A stretch of 64,000 nucleotides of DNA, taken from positions 1 to 64,000 of IMG/VR virus record IMGVR_UViG_3300029911_000025; one strand, written 5' to 3'. Below the pieces are notes generated by a model, which did not search any database, was not told where the DNA came from, and saw nothing but the letters and a program-made list of their open reading frames with translations. This stretch comes from a virus. Positions 939 through 53,944 of the stretch are shown here, in pieces (within the stretch, counting starts at the first letter, position 1; every line of letters begins with the position of its first letter). The position numbers were made by a program, and so were the translations under genes.

Positions 939-1088
939 ATGATCCGAGTCTGCCCAGAGCGCGACGCAGTTTGCCCGCACGGCATGGACTGTCCCTACGT
1001 CCTTGACCGCTACGAGTGCAAGCCGGAACCCAGGCCCGAAACGCCACCAATGGCCAACCCTCAACGCCATGCGGAAGAGGTGGGGTGA
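939..1088 (+). CDS. Small cysteine-containing protein (49 aa)
   Basis: The start at 939 is favoured over an upstream in-frame ATG at 891 because a purine-rich GAGAGGGAG lies just in front of it. Four cysteines at residues 5, 12, 18 and 27 could bind a metal, although the spacing matches no named finger that I know. The stop codon overlaps the next start as TGATG. The function is unknown. Confidence 0.5.
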   Translation: MIRVCPERDAVCPHGMDCPYVLDRYECKPEPRPETPPMANPQRHAEEVG

Positions 1089-1363
1089 TGGCTGAAAAGC
1101 ACCACGCCGATCATGGGCCGATCTCTGCCGAGCATCACGCGCTGATGAACAGCCTGGCGCACGGTCTGGACGAAATCTTCAACGGCAAGGACTGCCCCGC
1201 CGACAAGAAGCGCGTCGGCTTCTTCCTGACCGTGTTCAACCTTGATGAATCCGAGGGTCGTTTCAACTACATCAGCAACGCCGACAAACTAGATGTGCGG
1301 GTGATGCTGAAAGACGTTCTAGCGCGCATCGAAGCCAGACTTTCACCAGAAGGAACAGCATAA
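1088..1363 (+). CDS. Hypothetical phage protein (91 aa)
   Basis: The start is the ATG of a TGATG overlap; a longer frame upstream lies inside the previous gene and was rejected. The N-terminus is His-rich (KHHADHG, EHHA), and the rest is an amphipathic helical protein with a central FFLTVFNLDE stretch. Its stop overlaps the start of the Acb2/Tad1-like gene (TAATG), so the two are probably co-translated. Small, compact, with no recognised family. Confidence 0.7.
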   Translation: MAEKHHADHGPISAEHHALMNSLAHGLDEIFNGKDCPADKKRVGFFLTVFNLDESEGRFNYISNADKLDVRVMLKDVLARIEARLSPEGTA

Positions 1364-1605
1364 TGACCACTACAGGCGAAACCCTGACTTTCGGACAAAA
1401 GGCCGTGGGCCTTACATTCAATCCGTCGGCTGATGCCGCCGTGAACGAGTGCAAGCTAACCCACGCTGCGGCCATCGATCAGATGGACACCTTCCGCAAT
1501 CTGCCGACAACCTCGCCGGAGGCGAAGCGGCTCGCGTCCATCGCCATTACCGAACTTCAAGGCGCCCAGATGTGGGCGGTGAAGGCGCTAACGTGGAAGC
1601 CATGA
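1363..1605 (+). CDS. Acb2/Tad1-like cyclic-nucleotide sponge candidate
   Basis: This 80-residue protein has the layout of the Acb2/Tad1 hairpin family: a short N-terminal segment (GQKAVGLTFNPS) and two long helices. The second helix contains PEAKRLASIAITELQGAQM and ends in WAVKAL. Known members are phage-encoded sponges that bind the signal molecules of CBASS (Acb2) or Thoeris (Tad1) and so block abortive infection. They assemble from helical hairpins, which fits the size here. The gene overlaps both neighbours (TAATG and ATGA) inside a cluster of small accessory genes, a typical place for counter-defence functions. The family call rests on motif resemblance; which signal it binds, if any, cannot be read from sequence. 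Confidence 0.7.
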   Translation: MTTTGETLTFGQKAVGLTFNPSADAAVNECKLTHAAAIDQMDTFRNLPTTSPEAKRLASIAITELQGAQMWAVKALTWKP

Positions 1606-2159
1606 CCTCCCCCACAAACCCCACGGACAAGCTGGTGGAGGCGCTGAAACATGCGCGCGGATGGGTTGTGACGTGTTCGGAGTCCGCCAAGGCCAGACGC
1701 GACCTCAAAGAGATCGACGCCGCTTTGGACGCCTACCGCAGCCGCGCACAGGACGATGGAGTGACGATGCTTGTCGGTCAAGAATGGCTTGACCGCAAGA
1801 CCGCCTCTGACCCTGACGACGCCGACTGCGAAGTGCGCCCTCCCCTGATCGTCACGGACAAACTGGTGGAGGCGGTGGCGAGGGCGCTCTGCATCAGTCG
1901 CGACGGGCTCGACCTGTCCCGCGAGAAGGACCGCAAGTATCTCGAAGGCGAATGGTCGGACTGGAAAGACGAAGCCCGCGCCGCCCTAGAAGCCGCCCTA
2001 GCCCGCTCCGGTCCAGCCGAACACGACCGCGAGGAGTTGCTTGACACGATCGCGGACGCGATTGGCGACAGTATGGATATGGACTGGAACTACCGCGACG
2101 GTGCGCGATCAGTGCTTGCAGCGTTGGTGGCTGAAAACATCGTGAAGGTGAAACCATGA
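1602..2159 (+). CDS. Hypothetical protein with repeated helical module (185 aa)
   Basis: The start is the ATG of an ATGA overlap. The protein repeats a motif, TDKLVEALKHAR near residue 8 and TDKLVEAVARAL near residue 86. The second copy is followed by a segment ending ARAALEAAL that is widespread in small phage proteins. The next gene carries a related module (MVEAGARAL to ARAAPTAALEAA), so the two genes probably share ancestry. The function is unknown. Confidence 0.7.
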   Translation: MTSPTNPTDKLVEALKHARGWVVTCSESAKARRDLKEIDAALDAYRSRAQDDGVTMLVGQEWLDRKTASDPDDADCEVRPPLIVTDKLVEAVARALCISRDGLDLSREKDRKYLEGEWSDWKDEARAALEAALARSGPAEHDREELLDTIADAIGDSMDMDWNYRDGARSVLAALVAENIVKVKP

Positions 2160-3972: not shown

Positions 3973-4505
3973 TGCTAGAGATACTGGGGAAAGACCTTGT
4001 GCTGACATACCCGCCAGCGTTGGCGCTTACGGCGGTTTCGGCGCAGGCCATGGGCGCTGTGATAAACTCGCACGCGGCCATGTACGGACCAAGCGAAGCA
4101 GCGGCGTTTCAAGCACTAAATGCGATTACGCTGTTCTCGGGTTCGATAAACTTTAACGACGAACAAATGAGCCGTTCGTTCACTGACCAAAAGACAGGGA
4201 CGTTTTACTGGCTGGACACTGAGATCGCGCTGTACTTATCGGCGCCCGTCATGGCTTGCTATTTCTTTCATGACTGCTGGCACATGGTCCAATTCAAACA
4301 AGACGACGGACCAGCGGCTACCCTGAGCGACGAAATAAATCGCGAAGTTGATGCGGTGGCGCGACAAGTCGTTGTGGGCGGTAAGCTCGGTGTCCCGCAG
4401 TATGTTCTTGACTTTCTCACCAAGTATGGCAATGACCGCGCCGCCATTGCCACGCGCATCGGCCAAGGCGTAAACTCTTGCGCTTGCCGCATTGGTCAGG
4501 GGTAA
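3972..4505 (+). CDS. Hypothetical protein with HDxxH motif (177 aa)
   Basis: The start is the ATG of a TGATG overlap. Near residue 97 the sequence reads FFHDCWHMVQF, followed about 20 residues later by EINREVDAVARQ. That spacing resembles small zincin metallopeptidases (His-x-x-x-His plus a downstream acidic ligand), but the usual catalytic Glu of HExxH is Asp here. It could be a degenerate or divergent metalloprotein. It is the last small gene before the polymerase. Confidence 0.6.
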   Translation: MLEILGKDLVLTYPPALALTAVSAQAMGAVINSHAAMYGPSEAAAFQALNAITLFSGSINFNDEQMSRSFTDQKTGTFYWLDTEIALYLSAPVMACYFFHDCWHMVQFKQDDGPAATLSDEINREVDAVARQVVVGGKLGVPQYVLDFLTKYGNDRAAIATRIGQGVNSCACRIGQG

Positions 4506-4507
4506 AT

Positions 4508-6430
4508 ATGAAGCGCCCGCCGCAAGTTGTAACTGTAGACTTTGAGACGCTGCCCATACAGCCGCGTCCGCAATTTCCGCCGGAGCCGGTGGGTGTGTCC
4601 ATACTCATGCCCTCTGAGAAGAAGGCGCGGTATTTCGCTTGGGGCCACCCGGCCGTGAATAACTGCACCAAGCGGCAAGGCGCCGCCGCGCTGAAGACCG
4701 CATGGACTGCGGGTTATCCCTTGCTGTTCCAGAACGCTAAGTTTGATATATCCGTGGCGCAAGAGAAATTGGGGCTTCCTTTCCCCAAAGAATACCACGA
4801 CACGATGTTTCTTCTATTTTTACATGATCCACACGCGCCCGATCTTAAGCTGAAGGAAGCGGCAGAACGCATACTAGGTGAACCACCACTTGAGCGCGAC
4901 ACTCTTAAAGAGTGGATCATGTCTCATAAGAAACAGATCGCTGAAGAGTTTGGTTGGGAATTCACACCTAAAGAGTGGGGCAGCGCCATTGCCTATGCGC
5001 CGGGCGACTTGGTAGGAACCTACGCCAATGGGGACTCTACGCGAACCCGTGGTCTGTTCAACCACTTGTGGCCACGTATATGTGAGCGCGGCATGCAAGC
5101 CGCCTACCAGCGCGAAATCGACATCATGCCCATATTCCTTGAAAACGAGCGGGTAGGCTTGCGGGTCGATGTTGATAATCTGCGTAAAGACGTTGATGTT
5201 TACAACAGAGCGATGGAGACAGCCGATCAATGGTTGCGCAAGCGCCTGAAGACCAAGGACCTTAACCTTGACAACGATGGCGAAGTCGCTGAGGCCCTGA
5301 GCAAGACGGGCGTAATAGCCGCCGAAGACTGGGCTGTGACCGCCACGGGCAGGCGCAGCGTCAGCAAAGCGAACCTTCTGCCGGGCATGTTCAAAGACCC
5401 CGCTGTCGCGAGCGTGCTAGGGTACAGAAATCGGCTGACCACTTGCCTTAAGATGTTCATGTACCCATGGCTCCGCCAAGCCGAGGCGCGGCCTGACCGC
5501 CACATAAGCACGAACTGGAACCAAGTGCGTCAGCCTAGGGGCACAAGCACGGGCGGTACGCGCACGGGCAGGCCGTCCACTGCCGACCCTAACTTTCTCA
5601 ACCTGAGCAAGACTTGGGACGACAAGGACGACGGGTTCATCGAGCCGCACAAGCTTACCGGGCGGAACAAGTCGGACCCCGTACTCCAAAGCCTCCTAGG
5701 CTTGCCCCTAGTGCGCCGCTATATTCTACCCGATGCGGGCGAGACCTTTTGCCACCGCGATTTTAACGGTCAAGAACTTCGGGTCATGGGACACTTTGAA
5801 GACGGCGCGCTTCTTAAGGCATACCAAGAAGACCCAACGATCGATGTTCACTCCTGGGTCAAGGATATGATCCTTGAACACGCGGGGTTGGACTACCATC
5901 GCCACCAAGTCAAGGTAACTAATTTCAGGCGCATATACGGCGGCGGCGCGCCTGCCATGGCAAACGCCCTGCACATCAGCTTGGACGCCGCCAAACAGCT
6001 CCTAACGGCCCACAGTAAGGCGTTGCCGGGGCTTAAGGACCTGCAGGACCAAATAAAGGCGCTCAGCGCGGCGGGCGAGCCTATTGTGACTTGGGGCGGC
6101 CGAGAGTATTATGTGGAACCGCCGGGGTATTCCGAGCGCTTTAAGAGACACATGACTTATGAGTACAAGCTGCTGAATTACCTTGTGCAGGGCTCTGCGG
6201 CCGACATAACCAAGGAAGCGATCTTGCGTTACCATAGGCACCCCAAGCGCACGGGTCGGTTTCTTGTTACGGTGTACGACGAGATCAACGTAAGCGCCAA
6301 GAAAGCGGCGCATGAAATGGAGATACTTCGCCAGTGCATGGAGGGCATTGAGCTAGACGTGCTTCTGTTATCAGATGGTAAAACAGGTCCCAACTGGGGA
6401 ACGCTAACCAAATTCGTGGATACAAGATGA
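4508..6430 (+). CDS. Family A DNA polymerase with 3'-5' exonuclease
   Basis: Replicative phage polymerase of the DNA polymerase I family, 640 residues, without a 5' nuclease domain. The proofreading domain comes first: motif I VDFETLP (D11, E13), motif II FQNAKFD and motif III YANGDSTRT, so exonuclease activity should be intact. The polymerase domain has motif A HRDFNGQELR (usually DYSQIELR), motif B HRHQVKVTNFRRIYG with the nucleotide-binding Lys, and motif C VYDEINV, where Tyr replaces the usual His before the catalytic Asp-Glu. The ATG at 4508 follows CAGGGG at good spacing; a start 30 bases upstream lacks this. It heads the replication block. Confidence 0.93.
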   Translation: MKRPPQVVTVDFETLPIQPRPQFPPEPVGVSILMPSEKKARYFAWGHPAVNNCTKRQGAAALKTAWTAGYPLLFQNAKFDISVAQEKLGLPFPKEYHDTMFLLFLHDPHAPDLKLKEAAERILGEPPLERDTLKEWIMSHKKQIAEEFGWEFTPKEWGSAIAYAPGDLVGTYANGDSTRTRGLFNHLWPRICERGMQAAYQREIDIMPIFLENERVGLRVDVDNLRKDVDVYNRAMETADQWLRKRLKTKDLNLDNDGEVAEALSKTGVIAAEDWAVTATGRRSVSKANLLPGMFKDPAVASVLGYRNRLTTCLKMFMYPWLRQAEARPDRHISTNWNQVRQPRGTSTGGTRTGRPSTADPNFLNLSKTWDDKDDGFIEPHKLTGRNKSDPVLQSLLGLPLVRRYILPDAGETFCHRDFNGQELRVMGHFEDGALLKAYQEDPTIDVHSWVKDMILEHAGLDYHRHQVKVTNFRRIYGGGAPAMANALHISLDAAKQLLTAHSKALPGLKDLQDQIKALSAAGEPIVTWGGREYYVEPPGYSERFKRHMTYEYKLLNYLVQGSAADITKEAILRYHRHPKRTGRFLVTVYDEINVSAKKAAHEMEILRQCMEGIELDVLLLSDGKTGPNWGTLTKFVDTR

Positions 6431-11068: not shown

Positions 11069-11328
11069 GCACAAAGAATTCACCGATACACAAGCTGAAC
11101 GCGGAAGCTGGTGAAATTGCGCGCACGCTTAAGCGCGCCGAGCGCCGGGAACCCACACTAATCCCAGCAGCAACGCGCGACAAACCTACGATTAAGGTTG
11201 GTATCGTGATGGACGACAAAGTGCTTTCGCCGGAAATCTCCTGGGAAACTATAGGTGGCATGACTCAGGACGAACTTGCCCGATGGATCGTAGATGAGAT
11301 GCGGGAGATAAAGCATGTCAGACATTAG
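11065..11328 (+). CDS. Hypothetical protein (87 aa)
   Basis: Coupled to the HAD gene by an ATGA overlap. The N-terminal half is a charged helix (LNAEAGEIARTLKRAERRE). The middle is beta-like (IKVGIVMDDKVLSPEISW), and the C-terminus is a helix with TQDELARWIVDEM. No family is recognised; the helix-sheet-helix pattern could reflect a small nucleic-acid-binding protein. Confidence 0.65.
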   Translation: MSTKNSPIHKLNAEAGEIARTLKRAERREPTLIPAATRDKPTIKVGIVMDDKVLSPEISWETIGGMTQDELARWIVDEMREIKHVRH

Positions 11329-11875
11329 GCAAAAGCTGCTGGAGTATGGCATCGAGCTCATGCAAGAGTTCTGCACCGCCAATGCGCTTGCCACGCCCCA
11401 TGTAGCGGTCTACCCTGCGGAGCGGTGGAGGTTCAAGAGCGCCTGCGCGTACTACCGGCCCACCACCATTAGCATTTGCCCCACGGAGTGCGCCCACGTC
11501 GGTCGTGCGGGCATGGCGTGGAGCTATCCTGGGTACGCGGTGGACCGCACGCCCTACGGTGTAGTTCAGCACGAATTGGGTCACCACGTAGATTTTGTGC
11601 TGTCCGACAATAAATATTCCTATGGCGGCGACTTCAGCGAGAAGTTACGCGCAGCAACGGGCGAAAAAAGAATAACAAGTTACTGTCCGAATGACCAAGA
11701 ATGGTTTGCCGAAATATTCAGGCTCTTCGTTACTAACTCTGATTTACTGAAGCTTATCAGGCCCATTACTTACGCCGCACTGCGCAAAGTCTATAAGCCT
11801 GTGGTGGACGCCCCATGGCGCAAGGTGCTTAGGCACGCGCCCGAGCGCACGATAGAAATGGCGCCCCGCAAGTGA
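11315..11875 (+). CDS. Putative zinc metallopeptidase (zincin) (186 aa)
   Basis: The motif VVQHELGHHVDFVL near residue 86 is a clear HExxH zinc site. The later EWFAEIFRLFVTN segment supplies a Glu in the position of the third ligand of gluzincin-like proteins. The N-terminal half has CAYYRPTTISICP strands. Similar stand-alone zincins occur in phages, where their targets are unknown. The gene overlaps its upstream neighbour by 14 bases and ends in a GTGA overlap with the next. Confidence 0.75.
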   Translation: MSDIRQKLLEYGIELMQEFCTANALATPHVAVYPAERWRFKSACAYYRPTTISICPTECAHVGRAGMAWSYPGYAVDRTPYGVVQHELGHHVDFVLSDNKYSYGGDFSEKLRAATGEKRITSYCPNDQEWFAEIFRLFVTNSDLLKLIRPITYAALRKVYKPVVDAPWRKVLRHAPERTIEMAPRK

Positions 11876-12613: not shown

Positions 12614-13585
12614 ATGCGAATTTTAGTGCTTGGCGGCGGCGGCTTCATCGGCGGTCACTTGACGACGAAGTTACACCGAGAAGGCCACTACGTCGTTCCT
12701 GTCGATATTAAGAACGAACCGGATTATCCAAACGAATTCCATCGTTATATACGCGCAGATTTGCGAGACCCGTACATAGTTAACAGTATCATGAAGAATA
12801 TCGACAGAGAACCCTGGGACGAAATATACCAGCTCGCGGCCGATATGGGCGGGGCTGAGTACATCTTCTCTGGCGAGAACGACGCCAATGTGATGCACAA
12901 CTCGGCGCTGATCAACCTTAACGTCGCGAAAGCCGTGGTGGCGTACGCACCCACAGCGAAGCTATTTTTCTCGTCGTCGGCGTGCGTGTACTGCGAAGAT
13001 CCAGACAACCCGTTCTGCCACGAAGATAGCGCGTACCCCGCCGAGCCCGACTCCGCCTATGGGTGGGAGAAATTATTCTCGGAAAATATGTACGCGGCGG
13101 CGCAACGAAACTATAAGCTTGATGTCAGGGTGGCGCGGTTCCATAATATCTTTGGCCCCAAGGGCACATGGCGCGGTGGCAAAGAAAAAGCGCCCGCCGC
13201 CATCATGCGGAAGATAGCCGAGGCCTCCGAGCACGATATCATCGACGTATTTGGCGCCGGAACCCAAACTCGCAGCTTCCTCCATATCGACGAATGTCTA
13301 GAAGGCGTCCTGCGTTTGATGCGCGCCGATAAGAGCTACCCGCCGACAAATATCGGCTCAGATGAAATGGTATCCATCAATACGCTTGTGTGGATGGTGG
13401 CGGGCATCGCGGGCAAGCAGATCAAAACGCGTCACGTGGATGGCCCGCTTGGGGTGAACGGGCGCTGTTCGGATAACCGACTTATACAAGAGCGCTTGGG
13501 GTGGAGACCTAATGAGGCTCTTGAAGCTGGGCTCCGCAAAACTTACCCTTGGATCGAAGAACAGGTGAAATCATGGAAGTCGTAG
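12614..13585 (+). CDS. GDP-mannose 3,5-epimerase-like NAD-dependent epimerase
   Basis: The 323-residue short-chain dehydrogenase has the NAD loop GGGGFIGG (7-14) and the full catalytic set of GDP-mannose 3,5-epimerase: Cys124 in SSACVY, Tyr149 and Lys153 in AYGWEK, and Lys192 in GGKEKAPAA. The family blocks RFHNIFGPKGTW, TRSFLHIDECLEG, NIGSDEM and GRCSDN are also present. The reaction would convert GDP-D-mannose to GDP-L-galactose or GDP-L-gulose. It starts a new transcription unit after a terminator and overlaps a glycosyltransferase gene, which suggests it supplies the sugar donor. Whether the acceptor is modified DNA or a cell-surface glycan is inference. Confidence 0.88.
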   Translation: MRILVLGGGGFIGGHLTTKLHREGHYVVPVDIKNEPDYPNEFHRYIRADLRDPYIVNSIMKNIDREPWDEIYQLAADMGGAEYIFSGENDANVMHNSALINLNVAKAVVAYAPTAKLFFSSSACVYCEDPDNPFCHEDSAYPAEPDSAYGWEKLFSENMYAAAQRNYKLDVRVARFHNIFGPKGTWRGGKEKAPAAIMRKIAEASEHDIIDVFGAGTQTRSFLHIDECLEGVLRLMRADKSYPPTNIGSDEMVSINTLVWMVAGIAGKQIKTRHVDGPLGVNGRCSDNRLIQERLGWRPNEALEAGLRKTYPWIEEQVKSWKS

Positions 13586-14334
13586 TCCCAAGCATCGGTC
13601 GTGTCCACGATGTCCGCACAATCGAGAGCCTCGTACAGGCGGGCATAAGCCCCGTGGTGGTAACGTGGCCCGCGCAGGCCGCCGCCTACGTCCAGGCGTG
13701 TCCCAAGGAGGCGCGCGTGGTGCTCTGCAAGGTGCGGGGCATTGCCCTAACCCGCCAGTGGGTGCTCGAGAATGTGTCAGACGAAAAGATCGTCATGGTG
13801 GACGATGATCTTAGCTTCCACACGCGGCGGTTGGACGACCCCACCAAGTTCGTTCCTGCGACACCAAAAGATATCAAGTTACTGTTCAAGATGTTCGACA
13901 AGCATCTGAACAAGTACGCTCACGTCTCCATGGTGGGGCGCCAAGGTGGGAACCGAATTCTGACTGACCAGGAGTGCGCCCGGCCTTGGCACGTGTTCGG
14001 GTTCAACGTTCCCCGTGTGCGCGCCGTAGGGGCGAAGTTCCACAAGGGCTTGCTCCAAGACGACTTCGACATGACGCTCCAACTACTGAGGGCGGGCCTG
14101 CCAAACCGGATCATGAGTCAGTGGGCGGTTAATCAACACCATGGACATGGAGCTCCAGGCGGTGCGGCCACATACAGAACGGTGGAGGAGCACAACGCCA
14201 GCGTTCTTCTCCTTGCTAAGCGCAACGCCCCCTTCGTGGCGGTGCGCGAAAAGGAATACGCCCGCAACGATCCTCTCGGCACCCGCCTAGAGACAACAAT
14301 CGCTTGGAAGAAAGCTTATGCAAGTCATTCATAA
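13573..14334 (+). CDS. GT-A glycosyltransferase, TET-associated (TAGT)-like
   Basis: This 253-residue protein opens with VVVPSIGRVHDVRTIESL and has a YVQACP turn, GIALTRQWVLENV, then MVDDDLSFHTRR (D77-D79), the metal and sugar-nucleotide site. The later LLQDDFDMTLQLLRAG matches the second half of the fold. This order resembles the TET/JBP-associated glycosyltransferases predicted to glycosylate hydroxymethylated bases in phages. The ATG at 13573 has AGGTGAAATC in front and overlaps the epimerase by 13 bases. The DNA-glycosylation role is inferred from family resemblance and neighbours; glycan or protein targets are alternatives. Confidence 0.72.
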   Translation: MEVVVPSIGRVHDVRTIESLVQAGISPVVVTWPAQAAAYVQACPKEARVVLCKVRGIALTRQWVLENVSDEKIVMVDDDLSFHTRRLDDPTKFVPATPKDIKLLFKMFDKHLNKYAHVSMVGRQGGNRILTDQECARPWHVFGFNVPRVRAVGAKFHKGLLQDDFDMTLQLLRAGLPNRIMSQWAVNQHHGHGAPGGAATYRTVEEHNASVLLLAKRNAPFVAVREKEYARNDPLGTRLETTIAWKKAYASHS

Positions 14335-14605
14335 ATACCCAGTACTCGCCAAGCCGGGCGAGTCCGCCGATATCGAGATACCTATTGGAGCTAAGATCGT
14401 GCATTGCGCGCTTCAGAACTCAGGGCCGGTGCTTTGGGTTCTGATCGGCCCCATTCGCAATATTACGAAGAAGCGAAAATTCGCCGTGGTCGGTACGGGG
14501 TGGGACTTACCTGATGACGCGGAGCACATCTTCACCTTTATGGTAGGCGAATTTGTGTGGCACGTAATCGAAAAGAAGACCGCTGACGCCGTAACGGTGG
14601 CCTAG
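14318..14605 (+). CDS. DUF7352-like small phage protein (95 aa)
   Basis: The sequence HKYPVLAKPGESADIEIPIG, then KIVHCALQNSGPVLWVLI and ending FTFMVGEFVWHVIEKK, matches a small beta-rich protein family frequent in phages of Gram-negative bacteria. It probably forms a compact beta barrel. No activity is known. It overlaps the glycosyltransferase gene by 17 bases, so it belongs to the same transcript. Confidence 0.7.
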   Translation: MQVIHKYPVLAKPGESADIEIPIGAKIVHCALQNSGPVLWVLIGPIRNITKKRKFAVVGTGWDLPDDAEHIFTFMVGEFVWHVIEKKTADAVTVA

Positions 14606-14637
14606 CTATCACCCCTGTTTAAGTTTATAGTGGCCCC

Positions 14638-14772
14638 ATGTGTACTTGTGGAAACCGCTGGCCTTGGCTCCATTGCGGAAACAATGTCTGCAACTTCACG
14701 GCGTTCACCATGGAGCGGCGAGAAATAGCTTACGCACGGAGGAAGAGACTTGGCACTTTTAACTCTCCATGA
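14638..14772 (+). CDS. Small Cys-rich peptide (44 aa)
   Basis: The frame has four cysteines at residues 2, 4, 13 and 18 (MCTCGN, WLHCGNNVC), compatible with a small zinc knuckle, and a basic helical tail. It overlaps the next candidate gene by 23 bases. There is no strong ribosome site, so expression is uncertain. Confidence 0.4.
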   Translation: MCTCGNRWPWLHCGNNVCNFTAFTMERREIAYARRKRLGTFNSP

Positions 14773-15022
14773 CCCGTACGAATGGTTCGACCCCGAGCGG
14801 GGCCGCCAGGGTGTTCTGATACATTCGTCACAAATAGGTAGCCCCGTGGTGCGCCGTATGCGGGAACAATCAAACTGGATAGAAACATGGGAGGCATTCG
14901 ATGCGCACAAAGGAACTCGTGAAGTTCATCAAGGAACGCGAATCTATAAGGCTGAAGAAGGAAGCGGGCAAACCCCGCCCGTGGACGAAGGACCCGATAC
15001 TCGGCAACTATCGCTTCTGTAA
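14750..15022 (+). CDS. Hypothetical protein with TTG start (90 aa)
   Basis: A TTG start is used because ACGGAGGAAGAGAC lies directly before it, one of the better ribosome sites in the region. Residues 1-50 (LTLHDPYEWFDPERGRQG onward) look like genuine protein. The last 40 overlap the next gene in another frame, so the true protein may be constrained only in its N-terminal part. No family is recognised. Confidence 0.5.
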   Translation: MALLTLHDPYEWFDPERGRQGVLIHSSQIGSPVVRRMREQSNWIETWEAFDAHKGTREVHQGTRIYKAEEGSGQTPPVDEGPDTRQLSLL

Positions 15023-15731
15023 CGTACACCGCGAAGATGACCGGGTTACGCGAGAACTTAAGGCACTGGCCCCCACAGAAGATGCGAACCTGTGGTTCTG
15101 GTGGGTCATGGCGCGGCTGTTCAACAAGCCGCGCACCATGGCGCTTTTGTCCAACATGCGGTACATGGGCAAGCTGACCCTCAACCATGAGCAGATGCGC
15201 AAGACTTTGAAGGAAGCCCGCGAACACGGCCCTATCTTCAACGGCGCGTACATTGTGTCCACGAACGGCGTTTCCATGGACAAAGTGGACTACATAATCG
15301 ACCGCGTGTTGAAGCCGCTGTGGGCGGCGCGTAAAGATTTGCGACCGCTGCAAAACCAATATCTGTCCGGGTACCACGCGGATTTAATGCAGTTTGATGG
15401 GCTCGGAAGTTTCATCGCCGCGCAAGTGGTGGCGGACCTTAAGTACGTGGAGCCGCTCCTAAGCGCGCCTGATTGGGGGACTTGGGCCGCGCCCGGCCCC
15501 GGTAGCAGGCGCGGGCTAAACCGCGTGTTTGACCGACCTGTAGACGCTCCGTGGCGCACTGACGAGTGGCTGGCGCACCTTACCCAGCTACGCGCGGCCC
15601 TGAGCATGCGCGACAGGCTCCATGCGCAAGACCTACAGAACTGTCTGTGTGAATTCGATAAGTACGAACGCGCGCGACTAGGTGAGGGGCGGCCGAAACA
15701 ACTTTACAAGGAGTCCTCGCTATGCAGATAA
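14901..15731 (+). CDS. Thymine-hypermodification protein, HMUDK-helical/aGPT-pyrophosphorylase-like
   Basis: The 276-residue protein shows the pattern of the helical superfamily shared by the 5-hmdU DNA kinase helical domain and the alpha-glutamyl/putrescinyl thymine pyrophosphorylases. The matching segments are RLKKEAGKPRPWTKDPILGN, YRFCNVHREDD, LGSFIAAQVVADL, APGPGSRRGLNR and, near the end, LHAQDLQNCLCEFDKYER. In phages with hypermodified thymine, members act after a kinase puts phosphate on 5-hydroxymethyluracil in DNA, replacing it with another group. No kinase, radical-SAM or PLP partner is in this window; they may lie outside. A thymidylate-synthase relative, dUTPase, glycosyltransferase and sugar epimerase are nearby. 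Confidence 0.78.
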   Translation: MRTKELVKFIKERESIRLKKEAGKPRPWTKDPILGNYRFCNVHREDDRVTRELKALAPTEDANLWFWWVMARLFNKPRTMALLSNMRYMGKLTLNHEQMRKTLKEAREHGPIFNGAYIVSTNGVSMDKVDYIIDRVLKPLWAARKDLRPLQNQYLSGYHADLMQFDGLGSFIAAQVVADLKYVEPLLSAPDWGTWAAPGPGSRRGLNRVFDRPVDAPWRTDEWLAHLTQLRAALSMRDRLHAQDLQNCLCEFDKYERARLGEGRPKQLYKESSLCR

Positions 15732-15850
15732 TCGAAGCACTCGGTTTCATTGTGGCCGCGCTTATATTAGCCGCCACATTCTCCTATGGTGGTTTTGGCC
15801 GCGCTGTAGGAGATTCCCCCCGCTGGCCACAAAAGGAATACTGTCTATGA
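15722..15850 (+). CDS. Single-span membrane peptide (42 aa)
   Basis: The ATG lies within the last bases of the previous gene and the stop overlaps the next start (ATGA). Residues 4-24 (IEALGFIVAALILAATFSYGG) form one transmembrane helix, followed by a short polar tail. The function is unknown. Confidence 0.5.
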   Translation: MQIIEALGFIVAALILAATFSYGGFGRAVGDSPRWPQKEYCL

Positions 15851-16146
15851 GTAAACAACTGAATGTCGGCGCGACTTCCACGGCGACTGTGTCCTACCAG
15901 GACCCGGCTGGCGCTACCGTGCCGGTCGTGGGCACGCCTACGTGGACCGTGGATAACTCCGCCGTCGCAACGGTGGTCCCGGCCGCGGGCGGCCTCAGCG
16001 CCGTGGTCACCGCCGTCGCCGTTGGCACGGCTACCGTGACCGTTACGGCCGAGGGCGATCCGACCCCCGGCGTCGACACGATCACTCTGACCGGCTCGGT
16101 CGTCGTGGTCGACGAAGCCAGCACCGGCACGCTGACTTTCTCCTAA
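15847..16146 (+). CDS. Ig-like (BIG2) domain protein (99 aa)
   Basis: The protein is a single bacterial Ig-like group 2 domain: alternating Val/Thr strands with TWTVDNSAVATV and VTAVAVGTATVTVTAEGD, the usual BIG2 signature. Such free-standing domains in phages often decorate the capsid or tail and bind carbohydrates on surfaces. Here it is far from the late operon and on the other strand, so it may be made at a different time. The ATG at 15847 (ATGA overlap) was preferred to a longer upstream frame. Confidence 0.75.
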   Translation: MSKQLNVGATSTATVSYQDPAGATVPVVGTPTWTVDNSAVATVVPAAGGLSAVVTAVAVGTATVTVTAEGDPTPGVDTITLTGSVVVVDEASTGTLTFS

Positions 16147-16236
16147 GCCTCATGGGGTTCTGCCCGGACTGGGCGGACGCAAGCGCTGGTAGGGCGGCCC
16201 CAGACTAGGACATTTCGCACCACTGGGGAACAACGA

Positions 16237-17313
16237 ATGTATGTGATACGCGCGCGTAATGTGCAGCAAGCACTGCCAGAAGCCCTTCTGGCGCTAAGGG
16301 CACACGGCATCCGAGAATCATCACGGGTGGGAGATGTTCTTCGCTTTCCAAGCCCGGTGACTACCGTGCTGGAGAAACCCATGGAGCGAGTTATCTTTCA
16401 CGCGTGGCGAGACGCCAATCCGTTCTTTCACATAGTAGAAGCTGCGTGGATGCTTGCTGGGCGCGATACCCTTAGCGACCTCACGCCGTATGTGAAGAAC
16501 ATGGAGAATTTCAGCGACGACGGCGGGGTTACTCAGCCCGGCGCTTACGGTAAGCGGTGGCGAGAGCATGAAGGGCCACGCTTCGTTGATCAGCAGATAT
16601 GGCCTGATCAGCTTAACTGGACGGTCAAGCGTTTGCGCGAAAACCCAAACGACCGGCGTGTAGTCGTGCAGATGTGGGACCCCGGCGTTGATATCGAAGC
16701 CGCTGACAACAACGGCAAGGACGTTCCCTGTAATCTGACGATGATACCGTGGGCCATGGGCGGCAAGCTTCACCTGACCGTCTTCAATCGCAGCAACGAT
16801 ATTATCTGGGGATTGTACGGCGCCAACGCTGTTCATTTCAGCATGTGCTTGGAGTACTTGGCGGGCCGCGTGGGTTTGGCCGTGGGAACTATGACCACGG
16901 TGTCCAATAACTTTCACGCGTACGTGGACAAAATACCGCCGATGGCCGTTGTCGAATCAAGCCTGTTCCATGCCGGTGATCCGTATTCAAATGCCCCCGA
17001 TCTTGTGGCGCCCACAAGCTTGTTCGCTGACTGGGGCTTTAAGGTCATGGACGACGCCTACGAGCGCGTGATGCGGGAAGACCTGGACCAGTTCTTTAAT
17101 CACGGGCCAATGGCCACGATGAGTGATGCCCGGTGGCCGTGGCTGCGCCGGGCGCTAGCGCCCATGGCGCTTGCGCACCAACGCCACAAGGGGCCTCGCC
17201 TAGGGCGGCGCGCGGGAACCCTTAGCATACTAAGCAGCGTAGAAGCCTCGGACTGGCGCCGCGCCGCTACCGAATGGGCAGAGCGTCGATACCGGGTGCC
17301 CCATGGGGGTTAG
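16237..17313 (+). CDS. Thymidylate synthase family, candidate dUMP hydroxymethylase
   Basis: The 358-residue enzyme has thymidylate-synthase fold landmarks: the nucleophile in VPCNLTMIPW, FNRSNDIIWGLYGANAVHFS (phosphate-binding RS and the Asn after the loop) and VSNNFHAYVD. Canonical ThyA has PCH at the nucleophile, with GLPFNI in the next block; the departures place this in the phage subgroup that includes dUMP hydroxymethylases and divergent synthases. It would make dTMP, or 5-hydroxymethyl-dUMP for a modified genome. Position among a hypermodification-type protein and dUTPase favours the second reading. Sequence alone does not settle the product. Confidence 0.78.
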   Translation: MYVIRARNVQQALPEALLALRAHGIRESSRVGDVLRFPSPVTTVLEKPMERVIFHAWRDANPFFHIVEAAWMLAGRDTLSDLTPYVKNMENFSDDGGVTQPGAYGKRWREHEGPRFVDQQIWPDQLNWTVKRLRENPNDRRVVVQMWDPGVDIEAADNNGKDVPCNLTMIPWAMGGKLHLTVFNRSNDIIWGLYGANAVHFSMCLEYLAGRVGLAVGTMTTVSNNFHAYVDKIPPMAVVESSLFHAGDPYSNAPDLVAPTSLFADWGFKVMDDAYERVMREDLDQFFNHGPMATMSDARWPWLRRALAPMALAHQRHKGPRLGRRAGTLSILSSVEASDWRRAATEWAERRYRVPHGG

Positions 17314-52001: not shown

Positions 52002-53105
52002 ATGACAATCTGGAGAGCAAACATATACGCTGCGAAATGCAGTGTATGCGGAATGGAGCTCCCTCCAAACGAGGGGTGCTACCGCGTTGACTCAGTAATG
52101 GGGCGCAAATTCTACTGCGCGACACACAGGTACGAGTTCGACGTAAGCGGCGAACCGGCCCCTGAGCCCGCGTTTGCCAAGAACGCGGCAACGTCAGCGG
52201 TCAACGTAGAGGGCGTCGACGTCGACGACCTTGCGCGCAAGACTGCTGACCTCACCTTCGAAAAGGTGGCCGAGCATTTCGTGGCCACGGTCGGCCCCGG
52301 CGTCGAGAGGATGCTCCCAGCGCTTGTGCGGTCCGAGCTTCTCAAGGTCACCAAGGTCGCGGAGATCAAGATTGGTAAGGCGCCCAGTGTAAAGCTGGAC
52401 AAGAGCCACGCCATGCTCCCGACGATACTTCAGGCCATGGTGGCGGGGTCCAACCCATTCTTGGTCGGCCCAGCCGGTTCCGGCAAGACCACACTGGCGA
52501 AGCAAATCGCCAAGGTCATGGGGCTGAAGTTCTACATGGCGGCGCGAGTCACCAGCGAGTTCAAGCTTATCGGCTTCGTGGACGCCCATGGCGCCACGGT
52601 TCGCACAAGCTTCCGCGAAGCGTACGAATACGGTGGAGTCTTTCTCTTCGATGAGGTGGACGCCAGCGACGCGGACGCCATGACAAGCTTTAATGCCGCG
52701 CTGGACAACGGCATGTGTGACTTCCCGAACGGTCTTGTGCAAGTCCACAAGGACTTCCACGCCATTGCGGCGGGCAATACCTTTGGGCGCGGCGCAGACC
52801 GCCAGTATGTCGGCCGCAATCAACTGGACGCGGCCACTATCGACCGGTTCGACTTCTTCGAAGTCGACTATGATGAAGCGCTGGAGCACGAAATCGCTGG
52901 GGACACGGAATGGACCACCTATGTCCAGAAGATCCGCGCGCAAGTGATGGCGCAACAAGTCCGGCACATTGTCAGCCCGCGTGCCTCTATACGGGGCGCG
53001 CGCATGCTCGCCGCCGGTATGGACCGCGGAGTCGTCGCGGACGCCACGATCTGGAAAGGTCTGGCGGCTGACGTACGGCGCCGCATAGAGAACGGGGTGC
53101 TCTGA
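52002..53105 (+). CDS. MoxR/CbbQ-type AAA ATPase with N-terminal zinc finger
   Basis: The 367-residue protein has an N-terminal treble-clef-like finger (CSVCGM, then YCATH, with C13, C16, C39 and H42). The AAA core follows: Walker A GPAGSGKTTLA near residue 150, FLFDEVDASDADAM (Walker B), AIAAGNTFGRG (sensor 1) and ATIDRFDFFEVDYDE (arginine region). It resembles CbbQ/NorQ/GvpN-type ATPases of the MoxR group, which remodel partner complexes, usually with a VWA-domain protein. The next gene, overlapping by one base, may be that partner. AGGAG precedes the start. Confidence 0.88.
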   Translation: MTIWRANIYAAKCSVCGMELPPNEGCYRVDSVMGRKFYCATHRYEFDVSGEPAPEPAFAKNAATSAVNVEGVDVDDLARKTADLTFEKVAEHFVATVGPGVERMLPALVRSELLKVTKVAEIKIGKAPSVKLDKSHAMLPTILQAMVAGSNPFLVGPAGSGKTTLAKQIAKVMGLKFYMAARVTSEFKLIGFVDAHGATVRTSFREAYEYGGVFLFDEVDASDADAMTSFNAALDNGMCDFPNGLVQVHKDFHAIAAGNTFGRGADRQYVGRNQLDAATIDRFDFFEVDYDEALEHEIAGDTEWTTYVQKIRAQVMAQQVRHIVSPRASIRGARMLAAGMDRGVVADATIWKGLAADVRRRIENGVL

Positions 53106-53944
53106 TGCGCCTGTCACAGTCCGGTAACATAGTCGTTCAGTTTGGTGACTCGTTAGACGACGTTGTGCGTTACTTGCGCACGACGCCGCGTGTCTGGACC
53201 TACAACAACTCCAAGACTAATGACTACGGTCACCGCTGGACTTTTGGCCTTGACTACGAGGGTGCGCTGGAGCTCGCCCTCAAAGGATGGCCCGACGGCA
53301 CGGACCGCCTTGCCAAGGGCGTCAAGGCTATGCCCGCGCCACAAGCGGTCCACCATAAGCGCCAGTTCGATGTCGGGGGTGACTTCCCCGATGTCGGCCG
53401 CTTCGTGAGTGGTCAGCCTGACTGCATGGTCCGGCGCGGGCGCCAGTCCGGCATAAAGCCGGTGATCCACTTGGTAATCGCGCCCATGACTCACAGCGAG
53501 GTCACCGCCTATGAGTTCCTCACCATGGGGACTGCTATGGCATTGGTCATCGACCAGTTGGAGGCCTCGGGACGCCGCGTGGAGCTGGACGTTGCGTTCT
53601 ACCGGCGGCTCCCCAACGGCAAATCGCTAGAGGGCTGGAAGATAAAGCGCGCTGACGAACACTTGGACTTCGGGGCGCTTGCCTTTAGCATTGCGCATCC
53701 GGCCTCTGTGCGGCGCCTCGGGTTCGCTTTGCGGGAGCGCACGCGGTACAGTATGCAGGACGATGACTACGGACACTCCATACCCATCACGGCTGAAATC
53801 CTGCCGCTCATCGACGCTGAGCGCGCCTTGTGTATCAACATAGCGTACTCCGACTGTAAGACCACGCGCGGCGCCGTGCGCTCGTTGGTCAACATAATCA
53901 ACAACGCGGCGGGCGAGACCATTGTGGAGGCAGACTATGACTGA
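53105..53944 (+). CDS. DUF7192-like, VWA-like candidate partner of AAA ATPase (279 aa)
   Basis: The segment KPVIHLVIAPMTHSEVTAYE, then FLTMGTAMALVIDQLEASGR and RVELDVAFYRRL looks like the beta-alpha core of a von Willebrand A (CobT-like) fold, and the whole resembles a phage family paired with MoxR-type ATPases. No full metal-ion-adhesion motif is visible. It follows the ATPase with a one-base overlap, which supports a two-component chaperone, as in CobS-CobT or NorQ-NorD. The substrate in the phage is unknown. Confidence 0.65.
   Translation: MRLSQSGNIVVQFGDSLDDVVRYLRTTPRVWTYNNSKTNDYGHRWTFGLDYEGALELALKGWPDGTDRLAKGVKAMPAPQAVHHKRQFDVGGDFPDVGRFVSGQPDCMVRRGRQSGIKPVIHLVIAPMTHSEVTAYEFLTMGTAMALVIDQLEASGRRVELDVAFYRRLPNGKSLEGWKIKRADEHLDFGALAFSIAHPASVRRLGFALRERTRYSMQDDDYGHSIPITAEILPLIDAERALCINIAYSDCKTTRGAVRSLVNIINNAAGETIVEADYD

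Follow-up and report, generated by a model that had tools for sequence, protein, structure and literature searches.

An FNPS-type Acb2/Tad1-hairpin protein encoded ahead of a phage DNA polymerase gene: a candidate nucleotide-signal sponge

What might a gene for a protein of only 80 amino acids, packed among other small genes ahead of the DNA polymerase gene of a phage, contribute to the encounter between that phage and its bacterial host? The gene in question occupies positions 1363..1605 on the + strand of the window, by which we mean the whole stretch of 64,000 nucleotides that was analysed (bases 1-64000 of a 64,774-base virus record), and the first-pass annotation of this DNA had read it as a candidate Acb2/Tad1-like sponge for cyclic nucleotides or gcADPR. 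We describe its product as an FNPS-type Acb2/Tad1-hairpin protein and a candidate nucleotide-signal sponge, on the strength of a match to the Pfam family PF24729, a profile match to Acb2 and a structural model. An Acb2-like sponge to which no particular ligand is assigned is the most likely identity of this protein.

The reading frame begins with an ATG at 1363, ends with a TGA at 1603-1605 and closes with the residues ITELQGAQMWAVKALTWKP, in agreement with the coordinates, strand, start, size and ending that had been annotated for it. The sequence AAGGA stands eight bases 5' of the ATG. The start codon overlaps the end of the upstream gene by 1 base (TAATG), and the stop codon overlaps the start of the downstream gene by 4 bases (ATGA). 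Comparison of the gene with those of two relatives by the NG86 method gave dN 0.228 and dS 1.98 for one (L005) and dN 0.228 and dS 1.08 for the other (L067), dS being saturated and without a value for several further pairs; these ratios indicate that the protein is kept by selection. The low dN relative to dS and the existence of relatives in 158 records of a phage collection lead us to conclude that the frame is a real, conserved gene, beyond what chance would yield.

In 157 of these 158 records the match covers at least 80% of the query, and 146 of the records are those of Flavobacterium phages; the public relatives include those of Pasteurella phage Pmp11 (64.8% identity) and Enterobacter phage EcP1 (63.9%). 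A search of IMG/VR found 64 loci, two of which (L003 and L004) carry the 243-base gene in identical form; a scan of the same resource with an alignment as the query found 242 matching loci, of which 80 were kept, and the GTDB genomes contributed 3 loci (a Novosphingobium MAG, a Rickettsiales MAG and Hoyosella altamirensis). Alignment A1 has 55 rows and excludes L003, whose protein is the same as that of the window, and the near copies L036 and L048. A larger family set of 112 rows was filtered on the letters FNP, whereby F19, N20 and P21 are invariant by construction; this filter dropped four of the 80 loci, namely a broken one and L217 (INPS), L242 (FNSG) and L265 (FDPH). The locus L006/L198, in which the frame is interrupted, was excluded from all sets. 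The recruitment of loci relied in part on peptides such as QGAQMWA(V) and EAKRLASI, and conservation at these segments is inflated as a result. For the proven Acb2 proteins, 79 PaP2-type loci were gathered and 59 rows used (duplicates and the six short or fragmentary loci L154-L159 were excluded), 49 of which make up alignment A4, and 35 T4-type loci were gathered and 30 rows used (duplicates, L193 and L194 were excluded).

The family assignment follows most directly from Pfam. The sole Pfam match of the protein is to PF24729, "Acb2/Tad1, hairpin domain", which we take to be the family also named DUF7681, with 35.9 bits against a curated cut-off of 27 over residues 21-77; the profile comparison that had been proposed for the candidate thus came out in its favour. 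All 55 rows of A1 match the same family (E <= 0.01), and the two proven Acb2 proteins, scored with the same library as positive controls, reach 71.4 bits (T4 Vs.4) and 66.1 bits (PaP2 Acb2). In whole-record searches the family rises above its cut-off once each in the window's record, T4 and PaP2, and in none of 14 control genomes. Some of this was already known, in that Pfam covers the protein and relatives of it carry the family name in BFVD. An NCBIfam scan of the protein gave no match.

The relationship to Acb2 proper can be judged by comparing whole families with hhalign. The 112 family rows matched the 59 PaP2-type rows at a probability of 94.0% (E 1.5e-7) and the combined PaP2- and T4-type rows at 95.8% (E 6.9e-9), and the match to the 30 T4-type rows alone was weak (10.4%); on the same scale, PaP2-type and T4-type profiles match each other at 98.3%. 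Controls with reversed alignments yielded 0.1-0.2%, and 200 column permutations per target gave maxima of 13.2, 3.6 and 4.6% for the three targets, and at most 4.6% for the combined one. The smaller alignment A1 matched A4 at 92.4% and, weakly in both cases, the single T4 sequence at 41.6% and the single PaP2 sequence at 1.8%. An hmmsearch with the family profile ranked the best PaP2-type row at E 1.5e-6 and the best T4-type row at 0.0016, as compared with 0.067 for the best shuffled decoy. From these hhalign and HMM-search scores, the FNPS branch appears to be a true but distant relative of Acb2 that is nearer to PaP2 than to T4. Direct searches of the solved structures were set aside: phmmer with the single protein returned only an unrelated match (E 0.25), and the 55-row profile placed Vs.4 (E 0.11) behind a designed protein (E 0.0039) and is not used here as standalone evidence.

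The helical-hairpin layout that had been read from the sequence recurs in the AlphaFold2 model (pLDDT 94.1), which consists of a short N-terminal helix (residues 10-14) and two long helices. The first of these spans residues 25-45 (1435..1497, + strand) and includes K31, which the alignments place on PaP2 K26 and T4 K23; the second spans residues 52-77 (1516..1593, + strand) and includes R56, the segment QGAQMWAVKA and T63, which is aligned with T4 T68. The order of helices in the model, a short one followed by two long ones, is the same as that given for Acb2 in two publications (PMC10419184, PMC12043709). A Foldseek search of the PDB placed T4 Vs.4 (PDB 7uq2) at rank 3 with E 1.8, a match that is not significant and is the only solved Acb2 among the matches listed; VIA-align gave Z 6.7 and rmsd 5.6 over 66 residues for the same pair, tied with unrelated helical bundles. 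The PaP2 Acb2 entries 8h2j and 8h2x are absent among the matches listed by Foldseek (best 50) and by VIA-align, which does not by itself exclude the Acb2 fold. A control model of a PaP2-type relative, L087 (pLDDT 89.4; two long helices only), found 8h2j at E 2e-5 and Vs.4 at E 0.0087 by Foldseek, and reached Z 8.4 and 8.3, respectively, by VIA-align. Because the model of the window's protein scores below this control, its predicted fold resembles the solved Acb2 structures less closely than a true Acb2 does, and the sequence evidence gains little from the structural comparison. Against BFVD, the best three Foldseek matches are all named Acb2/Tad1 hairpin proteins, and the best two (A0A6J5LWM4 and A0A411AWH0) were found at E 4.2e-4 and 1.5e-3 with 35% identity; these phage entries ("Acb2/Tad1 hairpin domain-containing protein") are alike in fold and sequence, their names are apparently automatic family labels, and differences were compared in length only.

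The alignments show which residues of the protein stand at the positions that hold the ligand in Acb2. In the Pfam register, residue 7 of T4 and residue 10 of PaP2 fall on profile position 1, and residue 21 of the window's protein on position 4; this register and the hhalign comparison with T4-type rows concur in placing F19 on T4 Y8. According to two reports (PMC12657218, PMC12657230), the Y8A change in T4 Acb2 abolishes binding of cyclic dinucleotides; they also describe F82 of T4 Acb2 as stacking on the ligand, with diminished binding in F82C (PMC12657218), and a reduction of binding by T68M (PMC12657230). Two of these three published positions seem, from the alignments, to be retained as counterparts, Y8 as F19 and T68 as T63. 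F19 is likely to be the counterpart of Y8, in which case the replacement of Y by F would keep the stacking and lose the hydroxyl. The third position, F82, is aligned with T77, which is not aromatic, and W78 is adjacent to it. The protein shares with T4 Acb2 the pattern A.MWA..A near its end. As to PaP2 Acb2 (p26; PDB 8h2j, 8h2x, 8ixz), with which the protein has in common the PF24729 match and the profile match noted above, its residues K26, T74 and R67 align with K31, T63 and R56. We assume that Y11 and K26 of PaP2 Acb2 are residues of the dinucleotide site and R67 one of the trinucleotide site, and that the lysine at T4 K23/PaP2 K26, on which hhalign places K31, is a ligand residue. K31 and R56 are invariant in 112/112 family rows and in all 89 of the rows that differ from FNP onward, T63 is T in 110/112 and in 87/89 of these, respectively, K74 is K in 110/112, and the W78 position is aromatic in 109/112. 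The presence of F19 in 112/112 rows is partly due to the FNP filter; among the three intact rows that the filter removed, two have F and one has I.

The protein differs from PaP2 Acb2 in several respects. PaP2 Acb2 has 93 residues and a longer hairpin loop; its C-terminal end is QPDSF, in place of which the window's protein has TWKP; and its N-terminal motif KIKGYRDLSQ is replaced by TFGQKAVGLTFNPS. The N-terminal motif of the window's protein (residues 10-22, FGQKAVGLTFNPS; 1390..1428, + strand) is specific to the branch in both the 55- and the 112-row alignments, where it takes the form TFGxKAVGLxFNPS with near-invariant positions at G11 (111/112), V15 (109/112) and G16 (108/112). The dinucleotide pocket of Acb2, as set out in PMC10419184, includes the N-terminal segment. 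Since this segment differs, the ligand range of the FNPS branch may differ from that of Acb2. One might go further and suppose that, within the same lineage of sponges, this protein has come to hold a nucleotide signal other than the CBASS dinucleotides, for instance an isomer of ADP-ribose or a different cyclic oligonucleotide, through a reshaping of the pocket by the new motif. Such a shift would fit both the alignment of the hairpin half with Acb2, next to an N-terminal half that differs and is yet nearly invariant, and the structural match that is weak when set against the L087 control; however, the positions of T4 Y8, T68 and K23/K26 are retained, with F, T and K respectively, which favours similar ligands, and we regard the shift as rather improbable. 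About as doubtful is the broader conjecture that the FNPS proteins, spread over phages of Proteobacteria, Bacteroidota and Actinobacteria, form a class of sponges of their own, in which the motif builds a pocket unlike that of either Acb2 or Tad1, for a signal that neither of these is known to bind. If so, bacterial defence would seem to use a nucleotide signal that has been overlooked or underrated. Should the protein be a sponge, the conserved N-terminal motif would offer a direct way of testing its ligand specificity.

The first-pass annotation had left Acb2 and Tad1, and hence CBASS and Thoeris, on an equal footing as the affinity of this protein. An anti-Thoeris role as a Tad1-like sponge for gcADPR would be in keeping with the shared name of the Pfam hairpin family and with the appearance of CbTad1 chains (Tad1 of a Clostridium botulinum prophage; PDB 7uav, 8smd, 8kbf) at Foldseek ranks 7, 8, 11 and 12, where the two-helix hairpin common to both proteins superposes with an rmsd of 2.3 over 44 columns; but these matches, at E 2.4 to 2.6, are not significant. 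The Tad1 protomer, as described in PMC12043709, has an N-terminal beta-sheet that helps to form the gcADPR pocket, and the site itself is composed of conserved loops to which the second protomer adds its C-terminal tail and helices. The AlphaFold2 model of the 80-residue protein of the window contains no beta strand, and just 24 residues precede its first long helix. Because the model lacks the beta-sheet of Tad1, an Acb2-like identity is likelier than a Tad1-like one, and we consider the latter very unlikely. What stands of the original proposal is therefore membership in the family, by PF24729 and the Acb2 profiles; the parity that it gave to Tad1 and gcADPR does not.

The genomic surroundings bear on whether the gene has a fixed partner or a fixed role. 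In the window it belongs to a series of small + strand genes with overlapping start and stop codons, followed by a gene for a family A DNA polymerase (4478-6430; Pfam match above cut-off). The polymerase also has a match below cut-off (130.5 of 500 bits) to the model for DpoZ, which incorporates aminoadenine; no evidence for the use of this modified base by the phage emerged from the present analysis. The upstream gene (1088..1363, + strand) encodes a protein of 91 amino acids that belongs to phrog_35296, and the downstream gene (1602..2159, + strand) one of 185 amino acids; neither has an assigned function, and both are given here as context rather than as parts of a system. The 91-aa protein has relatives in Paracoccus phage Pthi1 and three mycobacteriophages; of its seven matches in phage records, one was inspected. 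As a fixed partner of the hairpin gene it was rejected, since tblastn found it in only 2 of 67 loci, the two (L003 and L004) that encode an identical hairpin protein, and a motif scan revealed no clear further copy. The cluster had also been suspected of containing further counter-defence genes, a suggestion that found no support: none of the 7 neighbours scanned against PADLOC-DB matched, the DNA polymerase alone among 9 neighbours scanned against Pfam rose above cut-off, NCBIfam gave no match of weight around the gene except for the polymerase, and PHROGs near it, besides those of the polymerase, are families of unknown function only.

In other phages the gene has other neighbours. It is found between the lysis genes and the terminase gene in Pmp11, among small genes that follow an RNA polymerase gene in EcP1, shortly after the large terminase gene in DSL-LC05, among unknown genes in FCL-2 and ahead of the terminase gene in Providencia phage PSTCR8lys. 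The proximity to lysis or terminase genes in Pmp11, DSL-LC05 and PSTCR8lys is what might be expected if the protein were a hairpin homologue that has lost ligand binding and become, for example, a small adaptor or structural helper. However, it also occurs near the RNA polymerase genes of EcP1 and, in other cases, next to genes for polymerases, exonucleases and Sak4-like annealing proteins, and its charged and polar residues show strict conservation even between phages whose hosts are very different. A PHROG tally of 97 of 167 upstream and 110 of 162 downstream proteins (at least 120 amino acids, within 3.5 kb; those omitted were mainly near copies and farther genes) found a mixture of replication, packaging and tail families, none of them in more than 9 of the 207 proteins scanned, on which ground a fixed genomic role was rejected. 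We accordingly give the adaptor or helper very little credence. Solitary movement between phages of many hosts, with neighbours that vary, fits an accessory counter-defence gene, a fit that does not amount to proof.

Taken together, these comparisons make it probable that the protein serves the phage as a counter-defence sponge and descends from the Acb2 lineage, in an uncharacterised "FNPS" branch of which the literature searched yielded neither a mention nor a test. Such a protein would be produced from a closely spaced operon that precedes the DNA polymerase gene, probably early in infection, and might assemble through its two long helices into an oligomer that would hold the signals of CBASS, cyclic dinucleotides and/or trinucleotides, without cutting them, whereby the CBASS effectors would stay off. 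An abundant small phage gene would in that event gain a role in the blocking of nucleotide-signalling immunity. Acb2-type sponges also trigger Panoptes, a defence that senses T4 Acb2 (PMC12657218). A putative Acb2 is named in a genome announcement for a Microbacterium phage (PMC13348362).

A sponge would in addition constitute a second, independent layer of counter-defence next to a predicted DNA hypermodification cluster at 12614-17313 of the window. The members of this cluster are genes for an NAD-dependent epimerase (12614-13585), a TET-associated glycosyltransferase (PF20691; 13549-14334), a protein with the helical domain of 5-hmdU DNA kinase (PF18723; 14901-15731) and a member of the thymidylate synthase family (16237-17313), a composition that suggests that thymidine in the DNA of this phage is modified and perhaps glycosylated.

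Several other features of the window were encountered in passing. The protein encoded at 7647-8066 matches the cysteine dioxygenase PHROG phrog_4786 (E 1.7e-47) and no Pfam family at E <= 0.01, and the 186-aa protein encoded at 11315-11875 has as its only Pfam match PF07737, below cut-off at 19.2 of 27.4 bits. An AAA ATPase gene (matching a "porphyrin biosynthesis" PHROG) adjoins that of a DUF7192 protein at 52002-53944; we presume that the two are perhaps a CobS/CobT-like pair. Near the start of the window, positions 4-197 consist of a tandem array of a 12-base unit in about 16 copies (or of a 36-base unit in 5.4 copies) that lies in an open frame, and the start of the window is 83% identical over 113 bases to gp36 of Burkholderia phage Bcep176.
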